Source: Gammaproteobacteria bacterium | Lineage (GTDB): Bacteria; Pseudomonadota; Gammaproteobacteria; Chromatiales; Chromatiaceae | Length of the DNA stretch: 64,000 nucleotides | Direction of reading: 5' to 3' | Assembly: GCA_024275295.1 (NCBI GenBank) | Contig: JAJRZI010000116.1 | Span: forward strand, 1 to 64,000 | Shown: positions 16,882-49,903 of the stretch, one piece after another | Layout: each line of letters starts with the position of its first letter | Position numbering within the stretch: position 1 is the stretch's first letter | Translations under genes and position numbers: made by a program | The notes under the pieces: model-generated | Databases searched by the model: none | Told to the model about the DNA's origin: nothing | What the model saw: only the letters and a program-made list of their open reading frames with translations

Positions 16882-16995
16882 GCTGTAACCTATTGTACAG
16901 CTCACGTTGGCTGTCACAGATGACCTCTGTACCAGATTAATCTGCTCTTTATCTCTTTTACATTCTACTTTTGCCATCATAATGTAAAGCTCCAC

Positions 16996-28608: not shown

Positions 28609-31600
28609 TCACGGGGAAGCCACCTCATAAGCCCCCATGGTATAACCTGCACCACTGGGTCTTGGATTGCCATCATAATCATCCAGCGGCGTCAGTGGAT
28701 CCAATGTATCACCACCCTGCAGCACCAGGTCAAGCACGGCATCCGGCGTGTAGGCATACCCCTGAAGGTGATAATCACCTGCTATGATAGGTGCATTGGC
28801 AGCCGGTATTGGCAATACAAACTTCGGATCATTCATCTTGTTACCTGTCCCGGCATACCCCCCCTGAACCACAGAGTAGGTCACATCATAGCCAGCAGCC
28901 AATTGATCTTCCGGGCTAAAGCATTCATCCAGATTGCCCCAGAAGATGCTGTATTTGGCCGTCACCGAACCAGGGCCTTTAATAGCACCGCCCTTCTGCG
29001 CCCGGTTGCCTGCAAAGGTGCTGTTGATGATGGTTGCAGAGCATCCTGAAAGTACATACAGCCCCGCCCCCTCATTGGATTGACCCGATTTACCATTCCC
29101 ACTCACAAGGGCATTAATCAGCGTTACCGTACCCACACGGCAGTAGATACCTGTACCCTCATCGCCATTATTACCTCTGATCCAGCTGCGTTTGAAGACG
29201 GGATTTCCAGAGAAAATATAGACACCCGCACCATGCGCATAGGTATAGGTAAAGTTGTCTTCAACGATGGACTGCTCAATCGTCGGTGAGGCACCAAAGA
29301 TATAGATACCACGGGAGTTGTTGCCACCACCGGATCGGGCATTATCAAGCGTGAAGCCCTGTATGGTAGAGGTATTGTTGCTGCGAATATCCATAACCGG
29401 GCTATCTGCACCCGTGCCCGTGACCGTGACACTACCGGCACCATCACGCGACTTGAGGGTGATGTTTACATAGTCAGCACCTCCAGGGCCATCCGTACCC
29501 AGCGTCAGGTTCTCGGCATAGATGCCTGGCAATACCACAACAAGATCACCGTTACTGGCTGCATCTATCGCCGCCTGAATCGTGCTGTGGTAAGGCCCGA
29601 TACCGGAGCAGTCAGTCTGGCAAACCACCTGATCACCATAGGGTATATAGACTGTTGCCGTCTGTTGCGGGAAGCCAGCAATAAACCCATTGCTATCATG
29701 GAACGTCATCCGCACATCGTACGTCTTACCTCCTTCTAATCCCATTATGGTCGTCGTAAAGGGCGAGGGTACATGCGGATGGCTGTTTGAACCCCAGGTT
29801 ATCCAACCTTCGGTATTACTCGGCTTATACTCGATACTGTAACTGTTATCAGCATTCACATCCTGCAGATAGGGCATTGATATATTGATGGCTCCACTGC
29901 CTGCGTATGAGGCAGACGCCATCAGGGCTATGGTGCCGTTATTAACCAGCTCAATATTGCTTATCATCTGCGTGGGTGGCTCTCCACCCACAAAGCCGTC
30001 CGCATCATTGTAGGTCATGCGCACATCATATATCCCACCCACGCTGAGACCTGTAATGACCGCAGTAAATGGCGATGCTGCATGTGGCTGCGGATCTGGC
30101 ATCCATCTGTTCCAGAGAGTTTCACTGCTTGGCTTATACTCAAGCGTGTAGCTGTTACTGTCATTGGCATCGTTGGCATACGGCATGCTGATATAGAGCG
30201 AATCGACACTGCGCGCCGAGGCCATCGCCACACCCGACGTGGTTCCATTGTACGGCAGTGTAATATCCGATATTTCAACCGGATTTGCGCCACTCACCGC
30301 ATCATCGGCGTACGTCAGCTGAACCCTGTATGTTTCACCAGGTATCAACCCCGTAATCGTAGTGAGGTAGGGTGGGGCCACATGCGGCGCATCAACCACA
30401 TGATCAGTCCAACTGCCACATGAGTTCTGCAGACAGTATCTGACGGTATAACTGTTATCGGCATCGGCATCGCCGCTGTACCCCATACTCACATCGATGG
30501 AATCATCTGCACCCGGTGTTACTTCTGCACGAGCCGTTGTGATATTGGTTGAATTGTCCATTGGCTTATAGGTTACATACTGCAGACACTCCCAGCTAAT
30601 GTTGCCAAACCCACCATAAATATCAAGGCCCGTTATATCATCGCCGGTAGAAACAATGGTTGATTTGCCATTAAATGGATTCCCCTCAATGCATGCGATC
30701 AGGCTATCACCCGGAGAGTAGAGAGCCGGAATGATATAGACACCATTCGTTGTCACACCAGACCCGGCCATCATGCCATTGTGCACCAGACGAACGACTG
30801 AACCATCAGCGATAGGCGTTATGCCGCTGTCTATATAGACAGTCCCGGAAACCGTCCGGGTGAAATTGATATTAAGGGTGCTGTCAGACGTTGCCGCACC
30901 TGTTGCCTCTGTGGTATTGCTTAATGCAAAAAACCGATAGTTTATATTTTCATCACCCGCAGCAGAAAGCATCAGTGTCTTCGAGTAGATCTTGCCATCT
31001 GCATAGTTATCATCCGACTGATCCGATGCCAGCATGTCGTGCTTTTCATTTGATTCATAGAGGCCATTATCATTGGCATCCAGCCATAACTGAATCGGTG
31101 AAGGGGGCCGGTTCAACGGATCTGCATAGTTAACACGAAATTCAAAATTTGCACTGCCCATCGCCGTATCTGGATAGACACCATCTGAAAGATAGTAGGC
31201 TTCACCTGTCCAGTTTAGCGTTGATGCTGTGCTGACAATGACATAGCGGGAATAGCGCTCTTTGGCTTTGTCTACATTGGTTGGCTCACCCGTTGCTGTG
31301 CTCTTGCCATCCGTAAAGTAAAAACGATAGCGCAGACGCTCGTCACCAGAACTGTATATAGTGATAGGTGATGAAACATATAATTCACCATTTCGGTAAT
31401 CCACACCTGCGCCTGCTTTATTCAGATTGTGTTTCTCTGCTTCTGAATAGATATAATCATCATTGGCATCAATCCAGACTTGTGACACCCTGGGCGCGTC
31501 ACCATCGGCATCTCTGTATTTGACGCGAAAGACAAAAGATCCGCCCGCTGCGCCCTTATTAGGGTGCACACCATCATTTTCAAAATTTGTATCACCTGAC

Positions 31601-34600
31601 CAAATCAACAGTGGGACACCATTATCCACCATGACCTGCTGGGTTACGGCCGGAGCGCCCATAGCCGCATGCCCCCCTGCCGCAGAGAAGAGACGGTAGT
31701 TCACTGCACCGTCACCCAGATGATACAGTTGTGCTGTATAGCTATAGCGTTCACCGTTACTGAAATCACCGTCATCGAAGGTACCGGTTGCGCCGGCCAA
31801 CTTCATCATGGTGTGCTTTTCACTCTCCTCAAAGGCGCCATTATCATTGGCATCAATCCATACTTCCATGGATGCCGGAGGGACGCCACCCGCATCGGTG
31901 TAATCGACCCGAAACTCAAAACTCGAACCACCCGGTGCCCGATCCGGGTTGACGGCATCTACTGTAAAATTGCTCTCCCCTGTCCAGGTCAGGATCGGGA
32001 TGCGGTTTATGCCCTGATACTCGTAGGCGCCGATATCCGCATCGGCTCTGGCATTGCCATCACGATCATCAGCAAGCGCTCCGGTACCGGCATGATTAAT
32101 CGCATCCGATAGGGGCTGGATATGGTAATCACGGCCTGCAGCATTTGAAAAGTTGGGGTCATTTTCCGACAGATAGCCACCTGTGGTCGGCGAATTTGAT
32201 GCTGGCGCAAAGACCGGCTCATCAAAGAGATCGACATCGCCATCATTTTGCACAATGGCATCAGTGATTGTCAGTGTGCCGCCATTGGAATAGACGGCAT
32301 GCCCTGAGGCTGAACCGGAGCTATTATTCCAGAGAATGCTATTGGTCAGAGTTATGGTACCGCTATTGCTGAAGATCCCCCCACCCGATGTTGATGCGGT
32401 GTTATTGGCCAGCGTACTGTTGTTCAGCGTCAGACTAACACCTCCATTCACCATAAAACCGCCACCCCTACCAACAGCTGTATTATCCGTAACCACACAG
32501 TTATCAAATAAACTTGCTGCACTGACGTAGGCTGCACCACCCTCGCCTCCAGCCTGGTTGCCAGAGAGACTGCACTGGGTGGCATTGACACTCTTGCCAT
32601 TTGTATAGAGGGCGCCACCTGCCGCACCTGCGGTATTATCCGTCATGGTTACATTGGTCAGTGTCAATGCACCCGTTATATTCTGGAGAAAAATGGCGCC
32701 ACCCGCATTACTCACGGAATTATTGCTGAGTACCGTATTGGTAAAGACGGGGTTCGATCCTCCATTAAAGGCCACACCACCACCGCGCCCTGCGGTATTT
32801 GAATAGATCTCGGAATCAGATACCCGCAGGGTAACGTTTCCGCCCAGGTAGATACCGCCACCATCCCCGCCACTGCGGTTATTACCGTGGATCTTGCTGT
32901 TCCTGACATCCATGGTGCCGCTGTAATTCGTGGATATGCCGCTAAGACCACCGGTGATCTGGAAGCCGTCAACGATGATGGTTCCCCAGACGCCTTGCAG
33001 GTAGATCACGTTATTTGCCGGGGCGGTGGCCTGTATGGTAGTGAGATCCGCGCCGCAGATGGATTGCAGCCTGGTGTCGTTGTCATTGCCATTGTTGGAC
33101 TGAAGGTAGAGATCCTCCACATAGACCCCCTGATCGACCAGCACCGTATGTGCGCCATCCACTGCATCAATGGCTGCCTGAATGCTGTTGTACCAGGTTG
33201 GGCCACTGGAGGCAGGGGTTTTGCGAACGCCCTTTGTCGTCCCACTGCTATCATAAACGGTGAGATATTTATCCGCAGTGGCGGGATCACCAATAGCGGC
33301 ATCGGCGTGGCCACCTGCCGGGCCAACATCAATCGCTGAAAAACGGTATTTCAGGCTGCCGCTCGCCGTTGGTGTGACGGTTGCCGTGTACTGCTCTCCT
33401 GTCGTGGCCCAATTGCCACCGCCACCAACCAGGGTCATGGCAACCTCTTCACCGCCACCATCGTAGGTGCCGTTGCCATTGAGATCGACCAGCAGTTTTA
33501 CCGCTCCGGGGCCGGCACCCCAATCATCCACATCGGTATATTTGAGCCTGAATTCCGTCGCCACCGATTGCAGGGTTCTGTTTGGTCTTGCACTATCAAC
33601 ACGGCAGTCAGAGGCATCCGTCACCCACTGCAACACCGCCGGTGAGTTGCTACTGGAGAGCACTGAAAAGCTGCTCCAGCGGGTGGGATCACCCACGGCA
33701 TCATCCATACCATCACTGGCGCTAAAGGCATATTGGGCAGAACCGGCAGCAGTGCTCGCATAGCTGACACTCTTGGTGTAGGTGTAGATCTTGCCTGCGA
33801 GGTAATCGCCACCCGCCACCGGGGTCATGGCATAGCTGGCATCCGCAACGCCATCGTTGTTCAAATCCTCCAGCATCAGGATGGATGCAGGGGGTTCGCC
33901 ATCCCCATCGGAATAACTCACCCGGAAGGTAAGACGAGTGCCATCGCCGCCCGTATCCGGGTGGACGCCATCACTCTCGTACTCGCTTTCACCACTCCAT
34001 ACCAGCTGTGGCGCAATATTCACAACCCGTACCGTATTCACTATCGTGGCAGGGCCGGTGGCGACACCATCTTCATCAACCGCCTCAAAATAGTATTTGA
34101 TCAGACCGTCACCCACCCTGGAGAGAGTCATGCTTTTGCTGTAGTCCCGACCATAGCTGTAGGGCATGGTCTGACCCGCCACCTCATCCATCACAAACCG
34201 CTCACTCCCGACATCGAACAGGTCATCGTTGTCGATATCCACCCAGAGGTAGATGGAACGTGGTGCTGCCTGATCCGGCGCATCATTATCCCAGTCCTTG
34301 TACTTCACCCGGAAGGTGATATTGGTGCCCGGCTCTACCGCATCCGGGCTGACGCCATCATGCTCAAAACCTGTGGTGCCTGCCCAATCCAGAATGGGGA
34401 TCTGTTCTGTGTTCTGAACCGGGGTGCGGGTCACTTCATAAATGGTGCTGCCGTGGCACTGCTCCGCACAGTAACCGTAGGTTGCGACCGGCCCCCAGAA
34501 ATAGGAGCGGTTACTGGCCGACAGCGTCAGGTTTGGCGGATCTGGCGGGATGTTGCCGTTTGGCCGGGTGGTGATGTTTGAATTGCCATACCAGACCCTG

Positions 34601-36732
34601 ATCCCCTTTTTCTGCGCCGCACCGGCATTGGGATCGACCTCCAGTATCTTGCCCGTGCGGATCATGGCAAAGTTGCTGGTACCATGAGGGTTATGGCAGA
34701 CGATACAGGTCAGTTTACTGTTCCAGCTGCCACTCCAGTCACTGCTCACATTGATGGCGCCCCTGGAGAGATGCCTGTAGTGCAGGTTTCGATAAGGGGA
34801 TTGCGTATCATCGTAGTAGTTTGATGTCTGAGGGCCATTGCCACCATCCGCTGTATCCGTAATGGCCTCAAAATCATGGCAGCTGAAGCAGAGCTGATAG
34901 TTGGACTCCTTGGGCGGAATATAGCCATCGGTCAATGGCATCTGCATGGGATATTTCAGCCGGTAGCTGTTCTGATATTCCGTCGGATCGCAGCCATCGG
35001 CGCAATCATAGGAGCGCTGGTTGCCGTCAATATGTGGCAGTCTGGGGTCATGACAGTCATTACACTCCCGCCCGGGGCCGGGCTTCGAGCCACCACTGGA
35101 GGGTATGCTTTGATCACTCGGCAGGCCGTGCCCGGTCTTGTAAAAACCCCAGCCAACGCCGTAGTTGTAGGGGGCATCCTCATCACCGATAACCGGGGGC
35201 GCAAAGACATCAACATCACGCATTATCCCGGCCTCTGCATCCCAGGCCGTTGTATTGATATGGGATGAGTTGGGCGCTGATGCCTGCCACTCATCATGAC
35301 AGCCCGCACACCACTTCTCTTTACCCGGCTTGAGGGTGGTATTATCGGCGCGGTAGACCCCATTGGAACGCCAGTTATCCTTGGCACCCACTGAATTCCC
35401 CACCGTGTTCACGCCGTTGTAGCTGCCCTCCGGGCTGTGACATGCATCGCAAACGTCGGTCTCGTCCAGGGTGAAAAGTCCGTCCTCATTGCGATCCACG
35501 CCTGACTTGAAGGTCGGCATATTGTAGATGTCATGACAGCTATTGCAGTAGATACCGGGGCCACGCCGGTCATCTGCACCAGCACTGGCCGGGGTGGTCT
35601 TCCCCCAACCCTCTCCAGAGGTGATCCAGCTTTCGGTGTGGGTGGAGTGGGCGGTGGTGGAGCCAAAGCCGCGCGAGGGCGCTTGCGACAGGCGTGATGG
35701 ATCATCCGGGTTGTAGGGGTATTGCCCGTCGATCATGTAGTAGGTGCCCTCTTCATGGCCGTGGCACTCGACACAGAGGTCAACGCGGGTGTAGCCCTTG
35801 CCGTGGCCAAAGCCCCCGATGTGTTTGTGACATTTAGCGGTACAGGTCTCACCTGCCGTGCCGTTGGGGTCGCCCCGGTCGGCATTGCGGTGCATCTGGT
35901 CATCGCCGGTGCCATCATTTCTGAAGTGGCCGGTCTTGGTGTGGCAGACCTGGCAGACACCATCCAGGGTGCTGTCGCTGTCAGCGTAGGAGTTGGCGCC
36001 ACTGTTCCTGAAGAATTTAACCTTTTTCCAGGTTCCCGGTTCGCCGCTGCCCGGTACTTTGATCGCGTCTTTAATCAGTTTGCCGTAGATGATGGCGTAG
36101 GTGTCGCCGGGCGCAATACGGGTGAGGTCGATACTGCCATCGAGGGTCAGGGTGGTGGCGGTGTTACTGAGCACTCTGTAGCTGAGGTTGTCGAGTGGAG
36201 TGCTCGGGTTTACCGGGTTCTGGGCATTGATGTTGGGGTAGATCACCCGTCCAGCGTGTTCATCCACTTGCCAGTTTGCCCCGGCGTCTGTCAGGGTGCT
36301 GAACATGGGGCCGCTGGTGGCTTGAGTCAGGGTGCCTGAGGCAAGGTAGGATTGCTCGCCGTAGACCTTGAACTGGAGCTGGGAGTGTGGCCAGTGACAG
36401 GTTCGGCATTCGATAAACCATTCGCCAAACTGGTTGCCGGTCTGCTGACTGGAGTGTGGCACCCGGTAGGGGGCCAGTTGGGGGCCGGTGTGGCAGCTCC
36501 AGCAGAGGTTGTTGGGGTTGGTATCATCCCCATCCATTTCGGGGTGGGGCGTTGAGGGTTTGAGCAGCTTGGCCTCTATGCTGCTGAGGTCGTGACAGTT
36601 CAGGCAGCTGAGGCCAGGGAGTATGGGATTGGATGGCTCATGCGGAAAATCCAGGCCACTGGCCACCAGTGCGATCAATGTCAGTGGCAACGCAAGCATT
36701 AATCTTGCAAAAATTGTTATTGTTCCCTTCAT
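28609..36732 (-). CDS. Giant exported multihaem protein A: 13-haem-motif domain, Ig-like calcium repeats, two beta-helices
   Basis: The 2707-residue protein has a signal peptide (LMLALPLTLIALVASGLDFP). From residue 43 to about 757 it has eleven CxxCH motifs (CLNCH, CWSCH, CRTCH, CQVCH and so on) plus two CxxxCH (CTAKCH, CAEQCH). Between motifs 7 and 8 lies an EF-hand-type loop, DRNEDGLFTLDE (residues 413-424). Then come about six Ig-like repeats with D-x-N-D-N-G loops (about 777-1160 and 1577-1955), split by a right-handed beta-helix (about 1164-1570); then fibronectin-like repeats (about 2060-2360) and a second beta-helix to the end. No C-terminal anchor motif is evident. I infer a periplasmic or cell-surface electron-transfer protein with a long stalk. 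Protein B at 39905-49903 is a paralogue. Confidence 0.92.
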   Translation of the reverse strand: MKGTITIFARLMLALPLTLIALVASGLDFPHEPSNPILPGLSCLNCHDLSSIEAKLLKPSTPHPEMDGDDTNPNNLCWSCHTGPQLAPYRVPHSSQQTGNQFGEWFIECRTCHWPHSQLQFKVYGEQSYLASGTLTQATSGPMFSTLTDAGANWQVDEHAGRVIYPNINAQNPVNPSTPLDNLSYRVLSNTATTLTLDGSIDLTRIAPGDTYAIIYGKLIKDAIKVPGSGEPGTWKKVKFFRNSGANSYADSDSTLDGVCQVCHTKTGHFRNDGTGDDQMHRNADRGDPNGTAGETCTAKCHKHIGGFGHGKGYTRVDLCVECHGHEEGTYYMIDGQYPYNPDDPSRLSQAPSRGFGSTTAHSTHTESWITSGEGWGKTTPASAGADDRRGPGIYCNSCHDIYNMPTFKSGVDRNEDGLFTLDETDVCDACHSPEGSYNGVNTVGNSVGAKDNWRSNGVYRADNTTLKPGKEKWCAGCHDEWQASAPNSSHINTTAWDAEAGIMRDVDVFAPPVIGDEDAPYNYGVGWGFYKTGHGLPSDQSIPSSGGSKPGPGRECNDCHDPRLPHIDGNQRSYDCADGCDPTEYQNSYRLKYPMQMPLTDGYIPPKESNYQLCFSCHDFEAITDTADGGNGPQTSNYYDDTQSPYRNLHYRHLSRGAINVSSDWSGSWNSKLTCIVCHNPHGTSNFAMIRTGKILEVDPNAGAAQKKGIRVWYGNSNITTRPNGNIPPDPPNLTLSASNRSYFWGPVATYGYCAEQCHGSTIYEVTRTPVQNTEQIPILDWAGTTGFEHDGVSPDAVEPGTNITFRVKYKDWDNDAPDQAAPRSIYLWVDIDNDDLFDVGSERFVMDEVAGQTMPYSYGRDYSKSMTLSRVGDGLIKYYFEAVDEDGVATGPATIVNTVRVVNIAPQLVWSGESEYESDGVHPDTGGDGTRLTFRVSYSDGDGEPPASILMLEDLNNDGVADASYAMTPVAGGDYLAGKIYTYTKSVSYASTAAGSAQYAFSASDGMDDAVGDPTRWSSFSVLSSSNSPAVLQWVTDASDCRVDSARPNRTLQSVATEFRLKYTDVDDWGAGPGAVKLLVDLNGNGTYDGGGEEVAMTLVGGGGNWATTGEQYTATVTPTASGSLKYRFSAIDVGPAGGHADAAIGDPATADKYLTVYDSSGTTKGVRKTPASSGPTWYNSIQAAIDAVDGAHTVLVDQGVYVEDLYLQSNNGNDNDTRLQSICGADLTTIQATAPANNVIYLQGVWGTIIVDGFQITGGLSGISTNYSGTMDVRNSKIHGNNRSGGDGGGIYLGGNVTLRVSDSEIYSNTAGRGGGVAFNGGSNPVFTNTVLSNNSVSNAGGAIFLQNITGALTLTNVTMTDNTAGAAGGALYTNGKSVNATQCSLSGNQAGGEGGAAYVSAASLFDNCVVTDNTAVGRGGGFMVNGGVSLTLNNSTLANNTASTSGGGIFSNSGTITLTNSILWNNSSGSASGHAVYSNGGTLTITDAIVQNDGDVDLFDEPVFAPASNSPTTGGYLSENDPNFSNAAGRDYHIQPLSDAINHAGTGALADDRDGNARADADIGAYEYQGINRIPILTWTGESNFTVDAVNPDRAPGGSSFEFRVDYTDAGGVPPASMEVWIDANDNGAFEESEKHTMMKLAGATGTFDDGDFSNGERYSYTAQLYHLGDGAVNYRLFSAAGGHAAMGAPAVTQQVMVDNGVPLLIWSGDTNFENDGVHPNKGAAGGSFVFRVKYRDADGDAPRVSQVWIDANDDYIYSEAEKHNLNKAGAGVDYRNGELYVSSPITIYSSGDERLRYRFYFTDGKSTATGEPTNVDKAKERYSRYVIVSTASTLNWTGEAYYLSDGVYPDTAMGSANFEFRVNYADPLNRPPSPIQLWLDANDNGLYESNEKHDMLASDQSDDNYADGKIYSKTLMLSAAGDENINYRFFALSNTTEATGAATSDSTLNINFTRTVSGTVYIDSGITPIADGSVVRLVHNGMMAGSGVTTNGVYIIPALYSPGDSLIACIEGNPFNGKSTIVSTGDDITGLDIYGGFGNISWECLQYVTYKPMDNSTNITTARAEVTPGADDSIDVSMGYSGDADADNSYTVRYCLQNSCGSWTDHVVDAPHVAPPYLTTITGLIPGETYRVQLTYADDAVSGANPVEISDITLPYNGTTSGVAMASARSVDSLYISMPYANDANDSNSYTLEYKPSSETLWNRWMPDPQPHAASPFTAVITGLSVGGIYDVRMTYNDADGFVGGEPPTQMISNIELVNNGTIALMASASYAGSGAINISMPYLQDVNADNSYSIEYKPSNTEGWITWGSNSHPHVPSPFTTTIMGLEGGKTYDVRMTFHDSNGFIAGFPQQTATVYIPYGDQVVCQTDCSGIGPYHSTIQAAIDAASNGDLVVVLPGIYAENLTLGTDGPGGADYVNITLKSRDGAGSVTVTGTGADSPVMDIRSNNTSTIQGFTLDNARSGGGNNSRGIYIFGASPTIEQSIVEDNFTYTYAHGAGVYIFSGNPVFKRSWIRGNNGDEGTGIYCRVGTVTLINALVSGNGKSGQSNEGAGLYVLSGCSATIINSTFAGNRAQKGGAIKGPGSVTAKYSIFWGNLDECFSPEDQLAAGYDVTYSVVQGGYAGTGNKMNDPKFVLPIPAANAPIIAGDYHLQGYAYTPDAVLDLVLQGGDTLDPLTPLDDYDGNPRPSGAGYTMGAYEVASP

Positions 36733-36991
36733 ATATTTACCCTTGCCTGCCGCCTGGATTTTACTTTTAATCGCATATTACCATACTCAGCCAGGTGAAT
36801 TTATCCGACCCACAGGTCAATATTCAAGCCCTATAGCGCAAAATGAGATATTACTTCCCCTTTAACCTGAAATTACAAAGGGTCATTTTTTATCTGGATC
36901 CGCTGGTTTCTGGTATAACTAAAGCCAATGACAGACCCCATTGAAATCAGTTAAATGCCCATCAAAAAACTTGATACAAAAAATAAAAATC

Positions 36992-39852: not shown

Positions 39853-39904
39853 GGGTTCTATTCTGACGGACTAATCCGCGCTACTCCACCACAACTATTC
39901 CGCA

Positions 39905-42900
39905 TTATGGAAGGTATTTAACTTCCAGGGAGATCTCTGTTATCACCATATCCGTGGCATCCGTATGGTCAACAATGGCAACCAGCGCATTGATCGCTGC
40001 CCAGCTCCAGGCAGCGCCGGTATTTGGATCAGTCGTATAGAGCGCACCTGAATAGGTAGTAAAGGTGGTTGAGCTGGTTGTATGGTTGGCATTATCACTG
40101 ACCGTTGTGGCTCCCGATTTGAGGTCGATATCAAAGTTAATAGTGCCACTGACACTTCTCACTAGCGCCTTAACCTGCACTGACTGAATAGTGCCTGTCA
40201 CAGCCGGGTTGTCCATCTCCAGATAGTAATCATTGGCACTACCATTAGAGCGACCATAGGAGGTAAGGCCATCATTGGTGTCATAGACTGTGGCCGCTGT
40301 GCCACCGACGTAACTGCTGGCAGTGTCACTGGCATTTGCGCCAGAAGGGTGCAGCGTCAAGATGCTGGGGGCAACGGTGGTTATCACACTCGGCACATTG
40401 GAGGAACCGCTGGTATTAGGCACCTCATCCAGGGTTTTTATGGCGAAATAATAGAGTGTCTCTGGATTTAGACCTGTTACTGTAAAGGTCTCGCTGCTGC
40501 CTGCAACCGATGGAGTTGGCTCACCTGCAACTTGGGTGGAGGTACCCCAAGAGGCCGATATCAGCGGCACCGTGTTGTAGCGAATATCATAACTGGTGGC
40601 CGTACCCGTAGCGCCATCATCACCGGGCGCTGTCCAGCTGAGCTGCACGGTTGCATCCGTGACGGTACCGATTGTCAGATCGGTCACCGCGGCAGGCCGC
40701 ACATCTTCAGGCTGATGATTGATCGTGATATAGAGCTCACTGATCCGCATATCATCGAGATCCGTATGATCAACGATTGCCACCAGATCATTGACCTCAG
40801 ACCAAGTCCACGCCAGCCCAGTACTCGGGTTTGTGGTGTAGGTCGTGCCCGCCTTTGTTATATAGCTGGTGGAGGTGTAGCTCAACGCTGCACTGAAATA
40901 CTCTGTGGCATAGGTTTTCAAACCCAGACGGAAGGAGGCATAGTTGAAATCCTCACGCCGCCCTACGGCCTTGACGGTAACTGAATTGATGACACCCGCC
41001 GGTGACGGATCATCCATCTCTGAATAGGAGTCCGTCGTTGCATCGTTGTACCAGCCATATGAGGTGCTGCCATCATTGCTGTCCATCGCCGTTGCCGCCG
41101 TGCCGCCCACATAGGAGATATTGTCGCCCGTTGCGGCAGCCGAGGGGTGGATATTGGTATCCAGTGGCGTTGGTGGCGTGTCGTTAATTACCACATAGAC
41201 CTCAGTGACTCGCATGTCGGTTCGATCCCGGTGATCAACGATAACCATCAGGTTGTTAACAGCATCTGCCGTCCAGGCCGCACCGGTACTAGGGTCGGTG
41301 GCATAGACCTTACCTGCAAAGGTTGCATAGCTTGATGTGCTGAGGCTGTGGTAGGCGTTGTCACTGTCCCGGGTGCCGCCCGACTGGATATCGATATCAA
41401 AGTTGGCCGTACCGGATGAGCCATCACGCCGCGCCACAACGAATACCTGCACAGAGTTGATGGTACCAGCCGTACTGAGATCATCAATATCCAGGTAGTA
41501 ATCATAGCTGGAACCTGTCGAACGGCCATAGGAGGTGCTGCCATCATTGCTGTCCAATGCGGTTGCTGAAGTACCACCAAAATAGCTGATATTGTCTGCA
41601 ATTGCAGTGCCTGATGGGTGCAACACAGCCTTGCCCGTACCTGGCAGCACGATGCCGAAGACCGTCTGCGGATTGGTGCCGGTAACGCCGTTGATGTCGT
41701 TGTAGGTCATGCGCACATCATAGGTCTCACCTGCGGTGAGGCCGGTAATGCTGGTGGTATAGATGCTGGGCACACGCACCGCATTGGTGACCCAGTTGCT
41801 CCAGAGCGTGGGTTCACTCGCCAGCTTGTAGTCCACCGTGTAGCTGTTGTTAAGGTTGCCATCACCCGTGTACGGCATCGTCACATCAATCGAGGTATTG
41901 CTGGCCATAATGGCCGATGCCATCCCTGCCGCAGTGCTGTCACTGGCATCGACATGCTCATCCGCGCCAATATCAACCGCAACGGAGCCATTGCCATCAC
42001 CATCGACCGGACGGTACTGCGCTTCAACATCATCCGCTGGCACATTGGCACCACCACCGATATCAATCAGGGTGGAGATGCTCTTCAGATGATAGTCACC
42101 ACCCGTTGTCGGCGTACCGATAGAGGCCTGGTCAACCAGCACAAACTCTGGGTCGATCGGCGTTGGGTTGGTCGCTCCGCCCGCTGTCCAGCCACCGATA
42201 TCCGAGTAGGTCACCTCTGCCGAGGTCAGCGCACCGTACAGGTCAGCCCCCGTATTACGGGAGGTATTGCCAAAGATGATGGTGTTCTCAACCCTGACCG
42301 TCGTAATCGCATCGGTATAGAGTCCACCGCCATTATTCTGCGCATAGTTACCCGAAATGGTGCAGCTGTAGAGGTTAAGTGTCGCCGTGCTTTTGTTAAA
42401 GATGCCGCCACCATTTTCATAGTCAGCATCACCGCCCACATTACCCGTGATAATGGTATTGGTCAGCGTTGCTGTGGCCGTGCCCGTATTGTAGAGACCA
42501 CCACCAAATCCGGCTGATTTATTACCTTTGATATAGGATCGATTAAGACTCAGGGTGGAGGATTGATTCTCAATACCCGCACCACTTGAGCTGGAACCAA
42601 TATTGCTGATGATCGTCGTATCAACAGCCGTTACCGAGGCACCATTTTGGGTGTAGATACCCACACCGCCCGTGGCGCTATTATTGCTGATCGTGCTCCC
42701 GGTAATATTGGCAATAGATGCGGCCTGGTTGAAATGCAGACCACCGGCTTTTGCGGATGCACTGTTGCTATCAATCGTGCTATCCATCATGGTCAGTGGT
42801 GCGTTACCCATATAGATCGCACCACCATACTGTGCTGAATTATTGCTGATGGTTACGCTATCCAGGATAGCGGGGTTGGTTATCGTTGACAGATAGAGCG

Positions 42901-45900
42901 CGCCACCATAGGCCGCCGCCGTATTTGAACTGAGCGTGCTGTTGCTGATCGACAGTGGCAGTGCAGCGGTAGAGCCCGTCATATAGATGCCCGCACCACG
43001 CGAGCCGCTATGGCCTGTCACGGTACTGCCATCCATCTCCAGCGCAGCCGCCGAGCCACTCAGGAAGATACCCGCACCGAATTTAACGCTCGGTATCACA
43101 TTAGCGGATATCGTCGAATCCTCAATAGCGATCGGTGACGTGCTATAGATGCCACCACCATCTGCATTCGAAGCCGAGTTATTGCTGATGATTGCATTGC
43201 TCAACGTGACCGTTGCTATCGTCCCGGTCAGGTAGAGGCCGCCACCCTGATTCGGTGTGGAGTTATTGGCCAGCGTGCTATTGGTAATATCGACAACACC
43301 ATTAAAACTGGTTAGATTGATGCCCGCCCCAGAGGTGTTGACGGTGTTGTAGCTGATGGTGCTGTTGCTGATGGTCAGATTATAGGGGCCACCGGCGGCT
43401 GTCCGGGCATAGATGCCACCACCAAATTCACCATTGTTGCCACCTCCGGCCGTGGTAGAACCGATACGGCTATCTTCAATGGTAGCACCACCCTGGGCGA
43501 TATGGATGCCCGCACCGATATTGGCATTCCACACATCCACCCGATTACCAGCGATCACGGAGTTCTTGATCGTTGGGTTGGCTCCATTTTCAATGAAGAT
43601 GCCATTCGACAGCGTGCCATCATGTTTCTGATTATCGATGGTAAAGCCATCCAGCGTGGGTACAGGTGTGACCGCTGCGGTAAACTTGACCACCGGCAGG
43701 TTGGTAGCGGTACTTGCCCCCCTGATGGTCACAGAGCCAAAGCCACCATCCGACTTCACATAGACACCGTCATCAAGGGCATCAAATACAATATTTTCAC
43801 TGTAAGGCGAGCCAGAGGCCTTGACCTCAACCATATCACCCGATGCCGCCGCATCAATGGCCGTCTGGATAGTGGTATAGCCGCAGCCGGAGGGACAGAC
43901 TGTATGTACGGTCGGCATGGTGACATTCAGGATGGTTTGCGTACCATTGGTGCCATTAATGCCGTCTGCATCGTTATAGGTCAGTTTGACATCATAGCCC
44001 TCGGCTGCAACCAGGCCGGTAATGGTATCGGTGTAAGGGCTGGTTGCATGCGCCTTCGGATTGGTTCCCCAATTGATCCAGCTGCCCTGTGGCGTGTTGA
44101 TCCGGTACTGGATGGTGTAGGTATTGTTGCCATTACCATCATGGCTGTATGGCATGGAGATATTAATCGAGGGATCACTGCCGGCAACCGCTGTCGCTGT
44201 ATCCGGTGTCGTAGCATAAACTGGCAGGGTGACAGACTCTGTAACAGCCGCCGTGCCCAGTACACCATCAGGATCACTGAAGGTCATCTTGACATCGTAG
44301 GTCTCACCACTGATCAGCCCGGTAATCGTCGGCGTATAGGGGCTGCTTGGGCTGGTCGCAGTGGCCCAGGTAGTCCAGCCATTGGTATCACCCGGTTTCA
44401 CGCCATACTCAACCTTGAGCAGATTATCGCTATCCTGATCACCCGTATAGGCCATGCTGACACTCAGACTGGTACTGCTGGCTGCAGCCACCGAGGTCAC
44501 ACCCGCATTGGTCTTGTACTCTTCAACCTTGAAATACCGGGAGTAGCGCTCTTTTGCCAACTGCTGTGAGGCGGGGGCACCCGTGGCATCATCAACGCCA
44601 TCGGAGAAGGCGAAGCGGTAGTAGATGCGGCCATCACCCGCCTTATAGATCGGTTTGGTGAAGGTAAAATATTCACCATTACTGTAGACGCCATCACGGT
44701 ACTGGGCGGCATCCGGTGTCTCCACCGTCATATTGTTGTACTCATTGGAATCGTAGAAGGTGGAGTCATTCTCATCAATCCAGACCTGGGCAAGTACCGG
44801 TGGGGTATTGTCTGGATCGGTGTACATAATGCGGAAGACGTAGCTGCTGCCCGAGTCTGATACATCGGGGTGTACGCCATCTGCGGTGTAATTGGTATCA
44901 CCCGGCCAGCTCACGGTGGGCACTCGGTTACCCACAAAGACCCTGTTGACCGCTACCGGCAGACCACTGGCAGCAGTGATGCCATCCGAGGCGATGATCC
45001 GGTAGTTGAGATAGCCTCCTCCAGGGCGGGTCAGCACCAGTGACTTGGTATAACGCTCGCCATTGGTATAGTTGCCATCACCGTACTGGCCGCCACCACC
45101 CGCCGCGGTCATCACATATTTTTCGCTGGCCTCAAAGGCATCATCCGCATCCTCATCAATCCACAGCTCGATAATGGCTGGGGCGATACCCTCCGCATCG
45201 GTGTAGTCGACACGGAACTCAAAGCTGGTGCCACCCACGGCATCATCCGGGTTGACACCGTCACTGATGAAGTTGGCCTCACCCGTCCAGGCCAGGGTAG
45301 GCTCCCCACCACCTGTGCCAGAGGCCATGTATTCATAGGCACCAATATCAGGATTTGAACGAAGATTGCCATCCCGATCATTGGCGGGCGCACCGAGGCC
45401 TGCATTGTCAATGGCATCCGAAGGCACCTGAAGGTGGTAATCACCTGTGGCAACATCCACAAAATTGGGATCATTGGCGGAGCTGTAACCGGTCAGCCCA
45501 AATGTGATATTGGCACTGTAGGGGTAGGGCGCATCGTTGAGGATGCCATCACCATCATTCTGAATGACCACATCGGCCAGGGAGACAGCGCCGCCGTTGG
45601 AGAACGCGACATGCCCCGTGCCGCTGGCGGAGTTGTTCCAGATAATGCTGTTGGAGAGGGTGGTCGGCCCATTCTGGTTCCACAGGAGTCCCCCATCACC
45701 GCCATTGGCGGAGTTATAGGCCAGGGTGCTGTTGACAATATCCAGCGTACCACCGTTGGTGGTAAAGGCACCGCCCTTGACTGTCGCTGCATTGCCCGCC
45801 ACCACGCAGTTGGTCAGGGTGCCATTACTGCTGCCATTGCCCAACGCCCAGGCTCCGGCATCCGTACCTGCGATATTGCCGGTGATGGTACAGTCGGTGA

Positions 45901-48900
45901 TGTTGACCGTGGTGCCGTTGCTGTACATGCCGCCACCCGCCGCCGAGGTCGAGTTATCCTTGATAGTGACATTGGTCAGGGTGGCCGGCGCAACCAGGTT
46001 TTGCCAGAAGATGCCTGCACCTGCGGTGGTCGCCGTGTTATTGCGCACCGTCAGATTGGTGAAGGTATAGCTGCCGCCATTGGTGGTGATACCGCCACCT
46101 GAGTTGTTGTAGATCTCGCTATCCAGCAGGGTTACCGTGGTCTGCAACTGGGCACCATAGCCTGCATTGCCATAGATCTTGCTGTTTTTGATGGTGATGC
46201 TGCCACCGTTGGTCACTACACCACGGCCACCACCGCCGGTGAATGAGAGGCCATCAAAGGTGGTGCCGAAGCTGTCTGCGGTAAAGAGCGCATCACCCGT
46301 TCCACCCGCACTGATGAGGGTTGAGTCGGCTCCACAGGTGGAGAGGATGTTCCAGTTGTCGTCACTGTAAGAGAAGCTGACCGCACCATAGGTGCCGGGA
46401 TCGACCAGCAGTGTGGTATTACCAGCCAACGCGGTAATGGCCGCCTGCACCGAGGTGTAGTCACCCCCTGATGCCTTGACCGTCTTGGCGTTGTAGACAT
46501 CAACCGTGCCACCCGTGGTGACCGGATCACCCACCGCATTGTCAGCGGCGATGCCATCGGTGGCATGAAATTCATAGGCAATGCCGGTATTGGGCGTTGT
46601 AATCGAGACAGCACCACTGCTGTAGAGTTTGCCGCCACCGGCGGTTGTGCAGTCAACATCGCCCGCATCCACCGCAGTGAGGTTGATCTTTTCAGAGATG
46701 GCATAGGCACTGTCATTATTCTTGTCCACCCAAACCTGGATATCAGCCGCCGCACCACCGGTGGCACACTGGCCATCATCATCGGTGTAGTTGACGCGGA
46801 ATTCAAAGGTGGCGCTGCTGGCTCCCCTGGGTGGTGTTACCCCAGCGGTGCGGCAACTCTCGGTAATCCACGCCAGCACCGGCACGGTGTTGGCATCCGC
46901 AGCCACGGTGACGGTGCTGTTACTGGTTGCTGGCGCACCGGTTGCCGCATCCGTACCATCGGAGGCATAGAATTTGTAGTTGTGTGAACCCGCGGCGGAG
47001 AGGGTGGTCGTGTAGTAATAGAGCTTGCCACCACCCGCCGTGGTGCAGTTGGTATCACCTGCACTCACCTCGGTCATGTTGAATTTTTCGCCCGCCTCAT
47101 AGCCGTTGTCATTGGCATCGATCCAGACCTGGATATTGATTGAACCACTGGCCGGACAGCTATCGCCGTCATCATCAATATATGTGACCCGGAAGCTGTA
47201 GCTGCCACCGTTGGCGCCGTTATCGGGGTGTACGCCATCACTGCTGTAATCTACCGACTCTGCCGTCCACTCCAGGGTAGGTGGGGCATTCTGGATCTGC
47301 AGGGTGCTATCGAGGGTGGGGGCACCGCTGGCAGCGCCGTCCAGATCTGCGGCGCTGAACTTGTATTTGATGATATTGTCACCCGCCTTGCTCAGGGTGA
47401 TATTGGTTGCATAGTCCACACCCAGGACATAAGGTGCTGATTCAACGGCCACCGGCTGCAAGGCATGTTTTTCCGCAGGATCTTCATAGGTGCCATTATC
47501 ATTTGCATCCAGCCACAGATAGATAGCGGTGGGGGCATCGTTGTCATAGTCCAGGTACTCAACCTGGAACTTGAATAGGCTGCCCGCCGCCGCCGCATCC
47601 GGGCTGACACCATCATTCTCAAACTCGGAGATACCCGCCCAATTTAATAACGGTGTCTGATCCGTCGCCTGAAAGGGGGTGCGGGAAATCTCTCGCCAAT
47701 TGCCTGCACCGTGGCACTGAGCCGCACAGTAGGGGTCAACACTGTTACTGATCAGGATGGATTCATTACTGGCAGCCAGGGTGACATTGCTCGGATTGGG
47801 TGTGCCCGGCGGGTTGGGGAGCGGGCCAAAGGCGGTATTCCAGAACCAGAGGCGGATCGGGGTGTAACCCACCAGTTCACCCGTGCGGATCATGGAGTGG
47901 TTTTTGGTGCCATGGGGATTGTGGCAGGTGATACAGGTCAGGCGGCTATTAAAGGTGGCTCCCCAGTCCGCCTTTATCAGGTTGGGAATATGGCTGAGAT
48001 GTTTGTAGTGCAGACTGCCGCCCGCCGCCAGGTCATAAAAATTCGAATTGGTGGCCGCCGGATCGGTAAAGGCGGTGGTGATGTCACCATGACAGCCAGA
48101 ACGCAGACAGAGCAGGAAGTCCGTGGTCTGCACCCCACCGCCAATACGTGGCATCTTCAAGGGAGCTGAACCGGCAAAGAATCGCATTCGATAGCTTGTG
48201 CCGTACTCATTCGAGTCGCAGCCATCGCTGCAATCAAAGGTTCGGGCATTTCCGTCAATATGCAGCTTTATACTTTGGTGACAATAGGTGCAGCTCTTAT
48301 CCGGCCCAGGCTTGATGCCACCGGTGGCGGGAAGGGTCGTGCTGCTGGGCGTGCCATGGCCGGTCTTATAAAACCCCCAGCCAACACCATAGTTAAACAC
48401 CTCCTTCTCATTGCCGATCACCTTGGGTGCGGTAACATCAATTCCCCGGTCAGCAATAACGATATGTGAGGGATCACTGTCATGACAACCGGCACACCAC
48501 TTCTCTTTGCCTGGCTTGAAATTGTAGTCGGCATCATAGATACCCTCTGAGTGCCAGTTGTCCTTGGCCCCCACCGAGCCATCCACCGAATTCACCCCGT
48601 TATAGTCCCCACCAGGACTATGGCAGCCAGCGCAGACACTGGTTTCGGCCAGACTGATCTTGCCATCCCCATTGGTGTCATCAGCCGCATAGGCGCCATC
48701 CTTTCTGAAGGTCGGCATGTTGTCGGTATCATGGCAGCTGCTGCAGTAGATGCCGGGGCCGCGCAGGTCATCATCACCCGCCCCGGCCGGTTTGGTGGTC
48801 TCCCAGTTGGCGCCATTGGTGGTCCAGCTCTCAGTATGCGTGGTGTGTGGGATGACTGAACCAAAGCCCCTGCTGGTTTTGGTACTGCCATTGGGAAAAT

Positions 48901-49903
48901 AGGGGTAGGTGCCATCCGGGTCGTAGATCGTACCCTCTTCATGACCATGGCACTCAATACAGAGATCAACCTTAGTGTAGCCCTTGCCATGACCAAAGCC
49001 ACCGATATGCTGGTGGCACTTCTCGGTACAGTTCTCACCCGCTGTTCCGTTGGGATCACCCCGATCACCATTGAGATGCAGTTGATCCGCACCTGTACCA
49101 TCATTCTTGAAATGACCCGTTTTGGTATGACAGACCTGGCAGACACCATCCAGGGTGGCATCACTGTCAGCAAAGGAGTTGCTGCCGGTTCGGCCAAAGA
49201 ATTTAACCTGTTTCCAGGTACTGGTGCCTGGCACCTTGATTTGATCCCGAATAATTTTTCCATAGATGACACCATAGGTATCACCCGCTGCAATATAAGA
49301 GGTGTCAACAGTACCATCCAGCGTCAGGGTGGTTGTGGTGTTGCTCAGTATCCGATAACTGAGATTGCCAACAGGTCGGCCACGGCGGTCACGCACATTG
49401 ACATCAGGGAAGACAACACGGCCTGCATGCTCATCGGCAGTCCAGGTTGCACTGGCATCAGTCAGAGTACTGGTTGCACCTGAAGTGACTGCTGTCAGGG
49501 TGCCGGTAGCCAGGTAAGCGGCGCTGCCATAGGCCTGTATCTGCGGTTGATTGTGGGGGTTGTGGCAATCTTTGCACTCCATATTCCAGGTGCCATGCTG
49601 CTGGCTGATTTGGTCACTGGAGTGTGGCACCCGGTAGGGGGCCAGTGCCGGGCCGGTATGACAACTCCAGCAGAGATTGTTCGCCTCGGTATTATCACCC
49701 CCCATATCAGGGTTGGGGGCCGAGGCCTTCAGCAGACTACCCAATGAACCATGCAGGTCATGGCAGCTGAGGCAGCCAATATCAGGGAGTATGGGGTTGG
49801 AGGGTTCGTGGGGGTAATCCAGTCCATAAACAACTGAAGCCATAGTGGCTAAAACTAGAGCTAGAGCACCATGCTTAATGAATAGTATTACCTTTGCTGC
49901 CAT
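39905..49903 (-). CDS. Giant exported multihaem protein B: 13-haem-motif domain, Ig-like calcium repeats, two beta-helices, C-terminal repeat modules
   Basis: The 3332-residue protein is a paralogue of protein A, with the same mature N-terminus (GLDYPHEPSNPILP). Residues 44 to about 728 have ten CxxCH motifs, two CxxxCH (CTEKCH, CAAQCH) and one CxxxxCH (CLRSGCH). An EF-hand-type loop, DTNGDGKISLAE, sits at 409-420 just before motif 8. Then come three Ig-like repeats with acidic loops (about 753-1140), a beta-helix (about 1145-1500), two more Ig-like repeats (1534-1790), fibronectin-like repeats, a second, longer beta-helix (about 2001-2560), and a C-terminal array of three ~150-residue modules (NISYFGGTSATALDSNDGST type; starts near 2761, 2918 and 3183) with one fibronectin III domain (about 3071-3170). 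The C-terminal modules are absent from protein A. Secretion route and function are unknown. Confidence 0.92.
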   Translation of the reverse strand: MAAKVILFIKHGALALVLATMASVVYGLDYPHEPSNPILPDIGCLSCHDLHGSLGSLLKASAPNPDMGGDNTEANNLCWSCHTGPALAPYRVPHSSDQISQQHGTWNMECKDCHNPHNQPQIQAYGSAAYLATGTLTAVTSGATSTLTDASATWTADEHAGRVVFPDVNVRDRRGRPVGNLSYRILSNTTTTLTLDGTVDTSYIAAGDTYGVIYGKIIRDQIKVPGTSTWKQVKFFGRTGSNSFADSDATLDGVCQVCHTKTGHFKNDGTGADQLHLNGDRGDPNGTAGENCTEKCHQHIGGFGHGKGYTKVDLCIECHGHEEGTIYDPDGTYPYFPNGSTKTSRGFGSVIPHTTHTESWTTNGANWETTKPAGAGDDDLRGPGIYCSSCHDTDNMPTFRKDGAYAADDTNGDGKISLAETSVCAGCHSPGGDYNGVNSVDGSVGAKDNWHSEGIYDADYNFKPGKEKWCAGCHDSDPSHIVIADRGIDVTAPKVIGNEKEVFNYGVGWGFYKTGHGTPSSTTLPATGGIKPGPDKSCTYCHQSIKLHIDGNARTFDCSDGCDSNEYGTSYRMRFFAGSAPLKMPRIGGGVQTTDFLLCLRSGCHGDITTAFTDPAATNSNFYDLAAGGSLHYKHLSHIPNLIKADWGATFNSRLTCITCHNPHGTKNHSMIRTGELVGYTPIRLWFWNTAFGPLPNPPGTPNPSNVTLAASNESILISNSVDPYCAAQCHGAGNWREISRTPFQATDQTPLLNWAGISEFENDGVSPDAAAAGSLFKFQVEYLDYDNDAPTAIYLWLDANDNGTYEDPAEKHALQPVAVESAPYVLGVDYATNITLSKAGDNIIKYKFSAADLDGAASGAPTLDSTLQIQNAPPTLEWTAESVDYSSDGVHPDNGANGGSYSFRVTYIDDDGDSCPASGSINIQVWIDANDNGYEAGEKFNMTEVSAGDTNCTTAGGGKLYYYTTTLSAAGSHNYKFYASDGTDAATGAPATSNSTVTVAADANTVPVLAWITESCRTAGVTPPRGASSATFEFRVNYTDDDGQCATGGAAADIQVWVDKNNDSAYAISEKINLTAVDAGDVDCTTAGGGKLYSSGAVSITTPNTGIAYEFHATDGIAADNAVGDPVTTGGTVDVYNAKTVKASGGDYTSVQAAITALAGNTTLLVDPGTYGAVSFSYSDDNWNILSTCGADSTLISAGGTGDALFTADSFGTTFDGLSFTGGGGRGVVTNGGSITIKNSKIYGNAGYGAQLQTTVTLLDSEIYNNSGGGITTNGGSYTFTNLTVRNNTATTAGAGIFWQNLVAPATLTNVTIKDNSTSAAGGGMYSNGTTVNITDCTITGNIAGTDAGAWALGNGSSNGTLTNCVVAGNAATVKGGAFTTNGGTLDIVNSTLAYNSANGGDGGLLWNQNGPTTLSNSIIWNNSASGTGHVAFSNGGAVSLADVVIQNDGDGILNDAPYPYSANITFGLTGYSSANDPNFVDVATGDYHLQVPSDAIDNAGLGAPANDRDGNLRSNPDIGAYEYMASGTGGGEPTLAWTGEANFISDGVNPDDAVGGTSFEFRVDYTDAEGIAPAIIELWIDEDADDAFEASEKYVMTAAGGGGQYGDGNYTNGERYTKSLVLTRPGGGYLNYRIIASDGITAASGLPVAVNRVFVGNRVPTVSWPGDTNYTADGVHPDVSDSGSSYVFRIMYTDPDNTPPVLAQVWIDENDSTFYDSNEYNNMTVETPDAAQYRDGVYSNGEYFTFTKPIYKAGDGRIYYRFAFSDGVDDATGAPASQQLAKERYSRYFKVEEYKTNAGVTSVAAASSTSLSVSMAYTGDQDSDNLLKVEYGVKPGDTNGWTTWATATSPSSPYTPTITGLISGETYDVKMTFSDPDGVLGTAAVTESVTLPVYATTPDTATAVAGSDPSINISMPYSHDGNGNNTYTIQYRINTPQGSWINWGTNPKAHATSPYTDTITGLVAAEGYDVKLTYNDADGINGTNGTQTILNVTMPTVHTVCPSGCGYTTIQTAIDAAASGDMVEVKASGSPYSENIVFDALDDGVYVKSDGGFGSVTIRGASTATNLPVVKFTAAVTPVPTLDGFTIDNQKHDGTLSNGIFIENGANPTIKNSVIAGNRVDVWNANIGAGIHIAQGGATIEDSRIGSTTAGGGNNGEFGGGIYARTAAGGPYNLTISNSTISYNTVNTSGAGINLTSFNGVVDITNSTLANNSTPNQGGGLYLTGTIATVTLSNAIISNNSASNADGGGIYSTSPIAIEDSTISANVIPSVKFGAGIFLSGSAAALEMDGSTVTGHSGSRGAGIYMTGSTAALPLSISNSTLSSNTAAAYGGALYLSTITNPAILDSVTISNNSAQYGGAIYMGNAPLTMMDSTIDSNSASAKAGGLHFNQAASIANITGSTISNNSATGGVGIYTQNGASVTAVDTTIISNIGSSSSGAGIENQSSTLSLNRSYIKGNKSAGFGGGLYNTGTATATLTNTIITGNVGGDADYENGGGIFNKSTATLNLYSCTISGNYAQNNGGGLYTDAITTVRVENTIIFGNTSRNTGADLYGALTSAEVTYSDIGGWTAGGATNPTPIDPEFVLVDQASIGTPTTGGDYHLKSISTLIDIGGGANVPADDVEAQYRPVDGDGNGSVAVDIGADEHVDASDSTAAGMASAIMASNTSIDVTMPYTGDGNLNNSYTVDYKLASEPTLWSNWVTNAVRVPSIYTTSITGLTAGETYDVRMTYNDINGVTGTNPQTVFGIVLPGTGKAVLHPSGTAIADNISYFGGTSATALDSNDGSTSYGRSTGSSYDYYLDIDDLSTAGTINSVQVFVVARRDGSSGTANFDIDIQSGGTRDSDNAYHSLSTSSYATFAGKVYATDPSTGAAWTADAVNNLMVIVDHRDRTDMRVTEVYVVINDTPPTPLDTNIHPSAAATGDNISYVGGTAATAMDSNDGSTSYGWYNDATTDSYSEMDDPSPAGVINSVTVKAVGRREDFNYASFRLGLKTYATEYFSAALSYTSTSYITKAGTTYTTNPSTGLAWTWSEVNDLVAIVDHTDLDDMRISELYITINHQPEDVRPAAVTDLTIGTVTDATVQLSWTAPGDDGATGTATSYDIRYNTVPLISASWGTSTQVAGEPTPSVAGSSETFTVTGLNPETLYYFAIKTLDEVPNTSGSSNVPSVITTVAPSILTLHPSGANASDTASSYVGGTAATVYDTNDGLTSYGRSNGSANDYYLEMDNPAVTGTIQSVQVKALVRSVSGTINFDIDLKSGATTVSDNANHTTSSTTFTTYSGALYTTDPNTGAAWSWAAINALVAIVDHTDATDMVITEISLEVKYLP

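Follow-up and report, generated by a model that had tools for sequence, protein, structure and literature searches.

The window analysed here, a 64,000-nucleotide stretch of contig JAJRZI010000116.1 from a gammaproteobacterium of the family Chromatiaceae, carries two giant paralogous genes, P0001 and P0002, with two smaller genes between them (Table 1). A sequence-only reading of this DNA had described the giants as exported proteins of 2707 and 3332 residues, each joining a 13-motif haem domain to Ig-like repeats, fibronectin-like (fn3-like) repeats and two beta-helices, with a SEL1/SPOR-like and a TMTC-like gene lying between them. Both open reading frames were present exactly where that reading had placed them, both intervening genes were found, and both giants start with a hydrophobic signal-peptide-like segment, in keeping with export. 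The domain composition was likewise borne out by Pfam, by our own profiles, by AlphaFold modelling and by structure matching, the second beta-helix of P0001 being recognised by paralogue similarity.

Table 1. Position of the genes and protein domains within the 64,000-nucleotide window.
Feature	Residues	Position	Strand	Basis
P0001, 13-haem / Ig / fn3 / double beta-helix protein, 2707 aa		28609-36732	-	whole gene
P0001 signal-peptide-like segment, no lipobox	1-26	36655-36732	-	hydropathy; cleavage site inferred
P0001 haem domain, 11 CxxCH + 2 CxxxCH	27-775	34408-36654	-	motifs, Pfam, alignment
P0001 Ig-like repeats 1-3	779-1161	33250-34398	-	own profile, E 4e-33 or better
P0001 beta-helix 1, choice-of-anchor-Q match at end	about 1165-1575	32008-33240	-	NCBIfam, model, structure match
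P0001 Ig-like repeats 4-6	1579-1957	30862-31998	-	own profile
P0001 linker domain, unnamed	1958-2065	30538-30861	-	remainder between profiles
P0001 fn3-like repeats	2066-2367	29632-30537	-	Pfam, own profile
P0001 beta-helix 2 (putative)	about 2369-2707	28612-29628	-	local similarity to P0002 helical regions
P0003, Sel1-repeat + weak SPOR protein		36941-37879	+	Pfam; divergent from P0001
P0004, PMT_2 + TPR (TMTC-like) membrane protein		37873-39852	-	Pfam; between giants
P0002, 3332-aa paralogue of P0001		39905-49903	-	whole gene
P0002 signal-peptide-like segment, no lipobox	1-27	49823-49903	-	hydropathy; cleavage site inferred
P0002 haem domain, 10 CxxCH + 2 CxxxCH + 1 CxxxxCH	28-747	47663-49822	-	motifs, Pfam, alignment
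P0002 Ig-like repeats 1-3	751-1138	46490-47653	-	own profile
P0002 beta-helix 1	about 1142-1530	45314-46480	-	Pfam, NCBIfam
P0002 Ig-like repeats 4-5	1535-1787	44543-45301	-	own profile
P0002 fn3-like repeats	1800-2000	43904-44506	-	own profile
P0002 beta-helix 2	about 2003-2655	41939-43897	-	Pfam Beta_helix, E 2e-32, best stretch 2131-2313
P0002 third fn3-like repeat	2659-2757	41633-41929	-	own profile
P0002 C-terminal part, 3 copies of unnamed ~135-aa repeat, Pfam fn3 between copies 2 and 3		39908-41581	-	Pfam, own profile

The two proteins share one order of domains, namely haem domain, three Ig-like repeats, beta-helix, three further Ig-like repeats (two in P0002), fn3-like repeats and a second beta-helix, beyond which P0002 alone continues with a further fn3 and the C-terminal repeats. 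Iterated profiles built from the proteins' own repeats gave P0001 six repeats of the Ig-like and three of the fn3-like kind, and gave P0002 five and three, respectively, plus three C-terminal repeats; beyond the fn3-like repeats found in this way, Pfam placed an fn3 domain at residues 3072-3161 of P0002. Above curated cut-offs, Pfam recognised an MtrC/MtrF-like domain II/IV, paired CXXCH motifs and fn3 in both giants and Beta_helix in P0002, to which NCBIfam added choice-of-anchor Q; neither database holds a named family covering the fusion. The unnamed C-terminal repeat of P0002 also terminates 10-haem cytochromes at two other loci (L098 and L099). Besides the signal-like start, neither giant has a second strongly hydrophobic segment or a C-terminal hydrophobic anchor, and no lipobox was found within the first 45 residues of either.

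The haem domain

Each giant contains 13 haem motifs, all located before residue 760, when CxxxCH and the single CxxxxCH are counted with CxxCH. Shuffling the same residues 2000 times gave a mean of 0.12-0.14 motifs and a maximum of 3, so that the 13-motif domain claimed for each protein stands far above chance. The remainder of the chain (the stalk, roughly 1,950-2,600 residues) contains no haem motif in either protein. The motifs predict that P0001 and P0002 are loaded with haem. Across seven aligned haem domains, 12 of the 13 motifs were invariant, as were 15 histidines lying outside the motifs, enough to provide each haem with a second axial ligand, which would make the coordination bis-histidine.

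The MtrC/MtrF-like profile PF22113 scored above its curated cut-off in both giants (E 9e-11 and 8e-13). As it also matches many other multihaem genes of the same genome, the link to MtrC is weak. A PDB profile search with the haem domain returned no cytochrome at E up to 5, the filament cytochromes OmcS, OmcE and OmcZ included, and a GFP-like protein that did appear was dismissed as a chance hit. An AlphaFold model of the haem domain built from seven sequences was unreliable (pLDDT 29.1, pTM 0.24).

The stalk

An AlphaFold model of the Ig-helix-Ig region of P0001 reached pLDDT values of 84-96 over most of beta-helix 1, and the modelled helix matched solved right-handed beta-helices with Z scores of 24-31. 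The best matches were AlgE4 (Z 31), RbmB (Z 28), phage tailspikes (Z 24-27) and PfbA (Z 25.8), that is, beta-helices that act on polysaccharide or are adhesive (AlgE4 is an epimerase, RbmB a lyase and PfbA a pneumococcal adhesin). These proteins share the fold of P0001 beta-helix 1; they differ in having no haem domain and are 8-19% identical to it. Regular beta-helix coils are thus present according to Pfam, the model and the structure match, whereas the second beta-helix is supported by Pfam in P0002 and by paralogue similarity in P0001. A PDB profile search with P0002 gave weak stretches only, to antibody light chains, around residues 3114-3193. Ig or fn3 domains span about 4 nm each and a helix coil 0.48 nm; by this rule of thumb, the stalk would be roughly 50-70 nm long. 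Its parts are of kinds that in other proteins bind or process polysaccharide or mediate adhesion. The pectin-lyase fold by itself points to no particular ligand.

Distribution, origin and selection

Two short peptides from the haem domain served as queries in a narrow scan of some 85,000 species genomes; the six loci recovered all lie in metagenome-assembled genomes, most of them labelled Gammaproteobacteria or Sedimenticola. The haem profile matched 12 of the 210 genomes of the family, in 5 of its 61 genera; the order-level sample consisted of the identical 210 genomes. A phylum-wide sample of 398 genomes added only two marginal matches of about 20 bits, and hence no convincing member from outside the family, and a scan of viral contigs gave no match.

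Four of the five other genomes of the genus carry members of the giant-protein family. Orthologues of P0002 occur in G003, in G004 (where the contig end cuts the gene) and in G005, those of P0001 in G005 and in G002, where the gene is a broken remnant; G002, G003 and G005 also carry a third type, 1654-1662 residues long. The G002 remnant (L072 4210-5024, contig C21) is short and has an internal stop, and its Sel1/SPOR neighbour is intact. In a second genus, genome G078 encodes two proteins of 2325 and 2327 residues that have 13 motifs each, followed by three Ig-like repeats, a beta-helix, three Ig-like repeats and a beta-helix. On its contig C143, one giant stands in tandem with a 13-haem protein of 1087 residues and with the end of a third copy. 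In a haem-domain tree, the G078 proteins and the three types of the genus studied here formed one fully supported clade, outside which fell 16-motif relatives such as those on contig C161. Given this single clade and the shared plan, the fusion would most simply have arisen once, before the two genera split. A relative from the second genus (L099) has ten CxxCH motifs, a lipoprotein-type signal (ITAC) and the C-terminal repeat of P0002, a combination that points to the cell surface.

Between orthologues, dN/dS was 0.06-0.22 in every domain, these ratios being rough owing to high dS; by this measure, all domains are under purifying selection over the full protein length. The haem domain had the highest identity of all domains between orthologues (81% and 90%), and the stalk domains diverge more.

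Neighbouring genes

The Sel1/SPOR gene occurs in exactly three genomes of the genus, those with P0001 or its remnant (a small count, from six genomes), and, more tellingly, it always adjoins the P0001 orthologue or remnant in divergent orientation. In G005 the pair lies at another locus, beside phosphate-transport-like genes, so the two genes have stayed linked through a move. Judged from gene order, the Sel1/SPOR gene belongs with P0001 as its conserved partner. No orthologue of the TMTC-like gene lies beside any relative's giant, the nearest homologues (25-43% identical) being located elsewhere; the gene was thus rejected as part of the unit, and with it the idea of a glycosylation partner acting on an Ig-domain substrate, since the glycosyltransferase gene is not conserved beside the relatives' genes. 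The P0001 and P0002 orthologues of G005 are on separate contigs, indicating that the side-by-side arrangement seen in the window is not conserved. Of the co-occurrence that the earlier reading had put forward for checking, the part concerning Sel1/SPOR and P0001 stands and the part concerning the TMTC-like gene falls, and the proposed four-gene paired system was not upheld, with the giants apart in G005 and the TMTC-like gene not conserved with them.

In relatives, the stretches next to the rpoH-like gene and a small HTH gene hold various multihaem genes. On contig C46 of G017 (L079 2-4877), from another genus, a different multihaem gene lies directly beside the rpoH-like gene, where the window has P0001.

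Redox and secretion genes elsewhere in the genome

The genome is rich in other multihaem genes. It also encodes GspD, part of the type II secretion machinery, by which the surface cytochromes of Shewanella are exported. No MtrB_PioB match was found in the genome, in which a different porin is possible, and no porin gene was recognised beside the giants. On contig C17, a 587-residue protein (L033 17904-19667) without a Pfam match starts with a signal-like segment and has the look of an outer-membrane beta-barrel; its surroundings include many multihaem genes and one for a PQQ-like repeat protein, and it is a candidate porin for an electron conduit.

Proposed role and alternatives

We propose, with about even confidence, that P0001 and P0002 are secreted redox adhesins consisting of a 13-haem head on a haem-free tethering stalk. 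The proteins would reach the periplasm by Sec, be loaded with haem c and then leave for the surface, with type II secretion as the most likely route. There, the Ig and fn3 repeats together with the beta-helices would bind polysaccharide (matrix, or the cell's own or a foreign envelope) or a solid surface and so keep the head close enough to an extracellular partner for electron transfer. The head may pass electrons, in either direction, between this partner and other outer cytochromes of the cell, with the stalk acting as an insulating tether; the Sel1/SPOR protein could be a dedicated helper of P0001, perhaps in assembly or export. This reading draws on the number and conservation of the haem motifs, the fold of beta-helix 1, the missing lipobox and C-terminal anchor, purifying selection, the recurrence of the plan in a second genus, L099, GspD, and the other multihaem genes, those on C17 and the Rieske / cytochrome b / multihaem set on C161 among them; the failure to find an MtrB/PioB porin, or a solved cytochrome similar in sequence to the haem domain, speaks against it. 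Because the stalk has no haem motif, it cannot carry electrons, and conduction along the protein, as once suggested, is excluded for a single chain. The companion suggestion of surface anchoring with the haem domain as a redox head agrees with the fusion to an adhesive-looking stalk, apparent export and conservation; its extension to host tissue is without support, and host-tissue adhesion was considered and rejected.

The MtrC/MtrF-like module in both giants raises the alternative of a terminal cytochrome anchored at the surface in the manner of MtrC/OmcA, its head docking on the outer-membrane porin conduit of its own cell and its stalk only spacing it or stabilising it in the envelope. The homologous 10-haem lipoprotein-type relative L099 and the beta-barrel-looking protein that C17 encodes alongside multihaem genes fit this arrangement; P0001 and P0002, however, lack a lipobox, and neither a porin gene beside them nor an MtrB/PioB match in the genome was recognised, and we consider it unlikely. 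We attach a lower probability still to recognition of a partner or host, whereby the beta-helices would bind the envelope of another organism with which the head exchanges electrons. The authors of the ANME work propose the same for the analogous MHC-C domain (PMC9012536), and the greater divergence of the stalk domains than of the haem domain between orthologues counts in its favour, but all stalk domains are under purifying selection and the haem profile is confined to just 12/210 genomes and 5/61 genera of the family.

A role outside electron transfer, in which a large adhesin would use haem c to fold, to store haem or metal or to withstand stress, has no direct evidence in its favour; the 13 conserved sites, the extra conserved histidines, the highest identity falling in the haem domain and the cytochrome-rich genome speak against it, and we hold it to be very improbable. 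A polysaccharide-processing enzyme, with a catalytic beta-helix (lyase or epimerase) and haems as electron source or sink, draws on the top structural matches, AlgE4 and RbmB, both of which act on polysaccharide. At 11-17% identity, however, a match in fold is no evidence of activity, and neither giant contains a YGFDPH-type motif like that of AlgE (search patterns Y..D.H or DPH); of the explanations weighed, such an enzyme seems to us the most improbable.

Relation to known systems

The closest precedent found is ANME MHC type C, a very large multihaem cytochrome with a pectin-lyase-like domain from methane-oxidising archaea, for which recognition of the partner's wall has been suggested (PMC9012536). 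Compared by description only, it and the giants are alike in combining a large multihaem cytochrome with a pectin-lyase-like fold, and in having neither an S-layer domain nor a C-terminal membrane helix (PMC9012536). The archaeal protein has its pectin-lyase-like region at the N-terminus, whereas the bacterial giants have the haem domain N-terminal and the helix C-terminal, with two helices alternating with Ig-like and fn3-like repeats.

OetF of the sulfate reducers that partner ANME resembles the giants in joining cytochrome c to fibronectin domains, is thought to bind matrix or partner, and is reported to belong to an Oet conduit cluster (PMC10553843); the accessible part of that report does not mention beta-helices in it, whereas the giants have beta-helices and no conduit genes beside them. 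The Pfam domain II/IV match at residues 295-486 (P0001) and 290-479 (P0002) is the point of likeness to Shewanella MtrC/MtrF. In contrast to these decahaem proteins, the giants have 13 motifs, no lipobox, a stalk of ~1,950-2,600 residues, no mtrAB neighbours and no sequence match to the solved MtrC/MtrF chains. Planctomycete-type cytochromes, which occur with CBM and Big_2 domains (PMC5615132), likewise combine a cytochrome domain with carbohydrate-binding or Ig-like domains; they have PSCyt domains rather than the 13-haem module, and the accessible part of the source reports no beta-helix.

None of the literature searched described an N-terminal haem head combined with a stalk that alternates between Ig and helix and with a Sel1/SPOR partner; the terms multiheme and 'parallel beta-helix' together retrieved no paper, the ANME precedent being worded 'pectin lyase-like'. 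The earlier suggestion of an undescribed fusion can thus be kept for the bacterial arrangement, which was unmatched in that literature and belongs to no Pfam or NCBIfam family, but not for the fusion as such, given ANME MHC-C (PMC9012536). Three features look new: the order in the bacterial proteins, the alternation of Ig and helix along the stalk, and the partner with Sel1 and SPOR. More tentatively, and with rather less than even confidence, the giants may represent a class of bacterial redox adhesins with an origin separate from that of ANME MHC-C, in which a 13-haem head on a 50-70 nm beta-helix/Ig tether is fixed in matrix, on a mineral or to a neighbouring cell, has a dedicated Sel1/SPOR partner, and was duplicated and diversified within one gammaproteobacterial family.

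Research on extracellular electron transfer has yet to explain how cytochromes outside the cell are kept in position. With anchor and redox head in one chain, the question becomes testable, stalk fragments being assayed for binding and heads for electron exchange. Should the archaeal and gammaproteobacterial proteins prove unrelated, the cytochrome/beta-helix fusion would be a repeated invention.

Additional observations

A DNA pattern for two close CxxCH motifs was too strict and gave no match. Contig JAKISI010000049 (L045) is titled Candidatus Polarisedimenticolaceae (Acidobacteriota), a label that is probably wrong, since the same contig (L072) carries genes that are 72-93% identical to, and in the same order as, gammaproteobacterial genes of the window. 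On contig C161 of the window's own genome, Rieske, split cytochrome b and 8-motif multihaem cytochrome genes lie in a row (L032 5092-8097) and may encode a quinol-to-cytochrome complex. The same contig also has a second multihaem set (L009 7128-12569 and 12902-19936), in which an 1813-residue protein combines 16 motifs with fn3, a small protein has 5 motifs, and a large multihaem gene is broken into frames of 413 and 1563 aa, either by a frameshift or by an assembly error. Finally, the window encodes a protein of 1875 residues (11368-16995, reverse strand), a possible further secreted partner, which is similar to a 788-residue protein with NHL repeats, a weak H-lectin match and TSP3 (L009 4749-7115 on C161, also L075) that adjoins multihaem genes on C161 and in G001.
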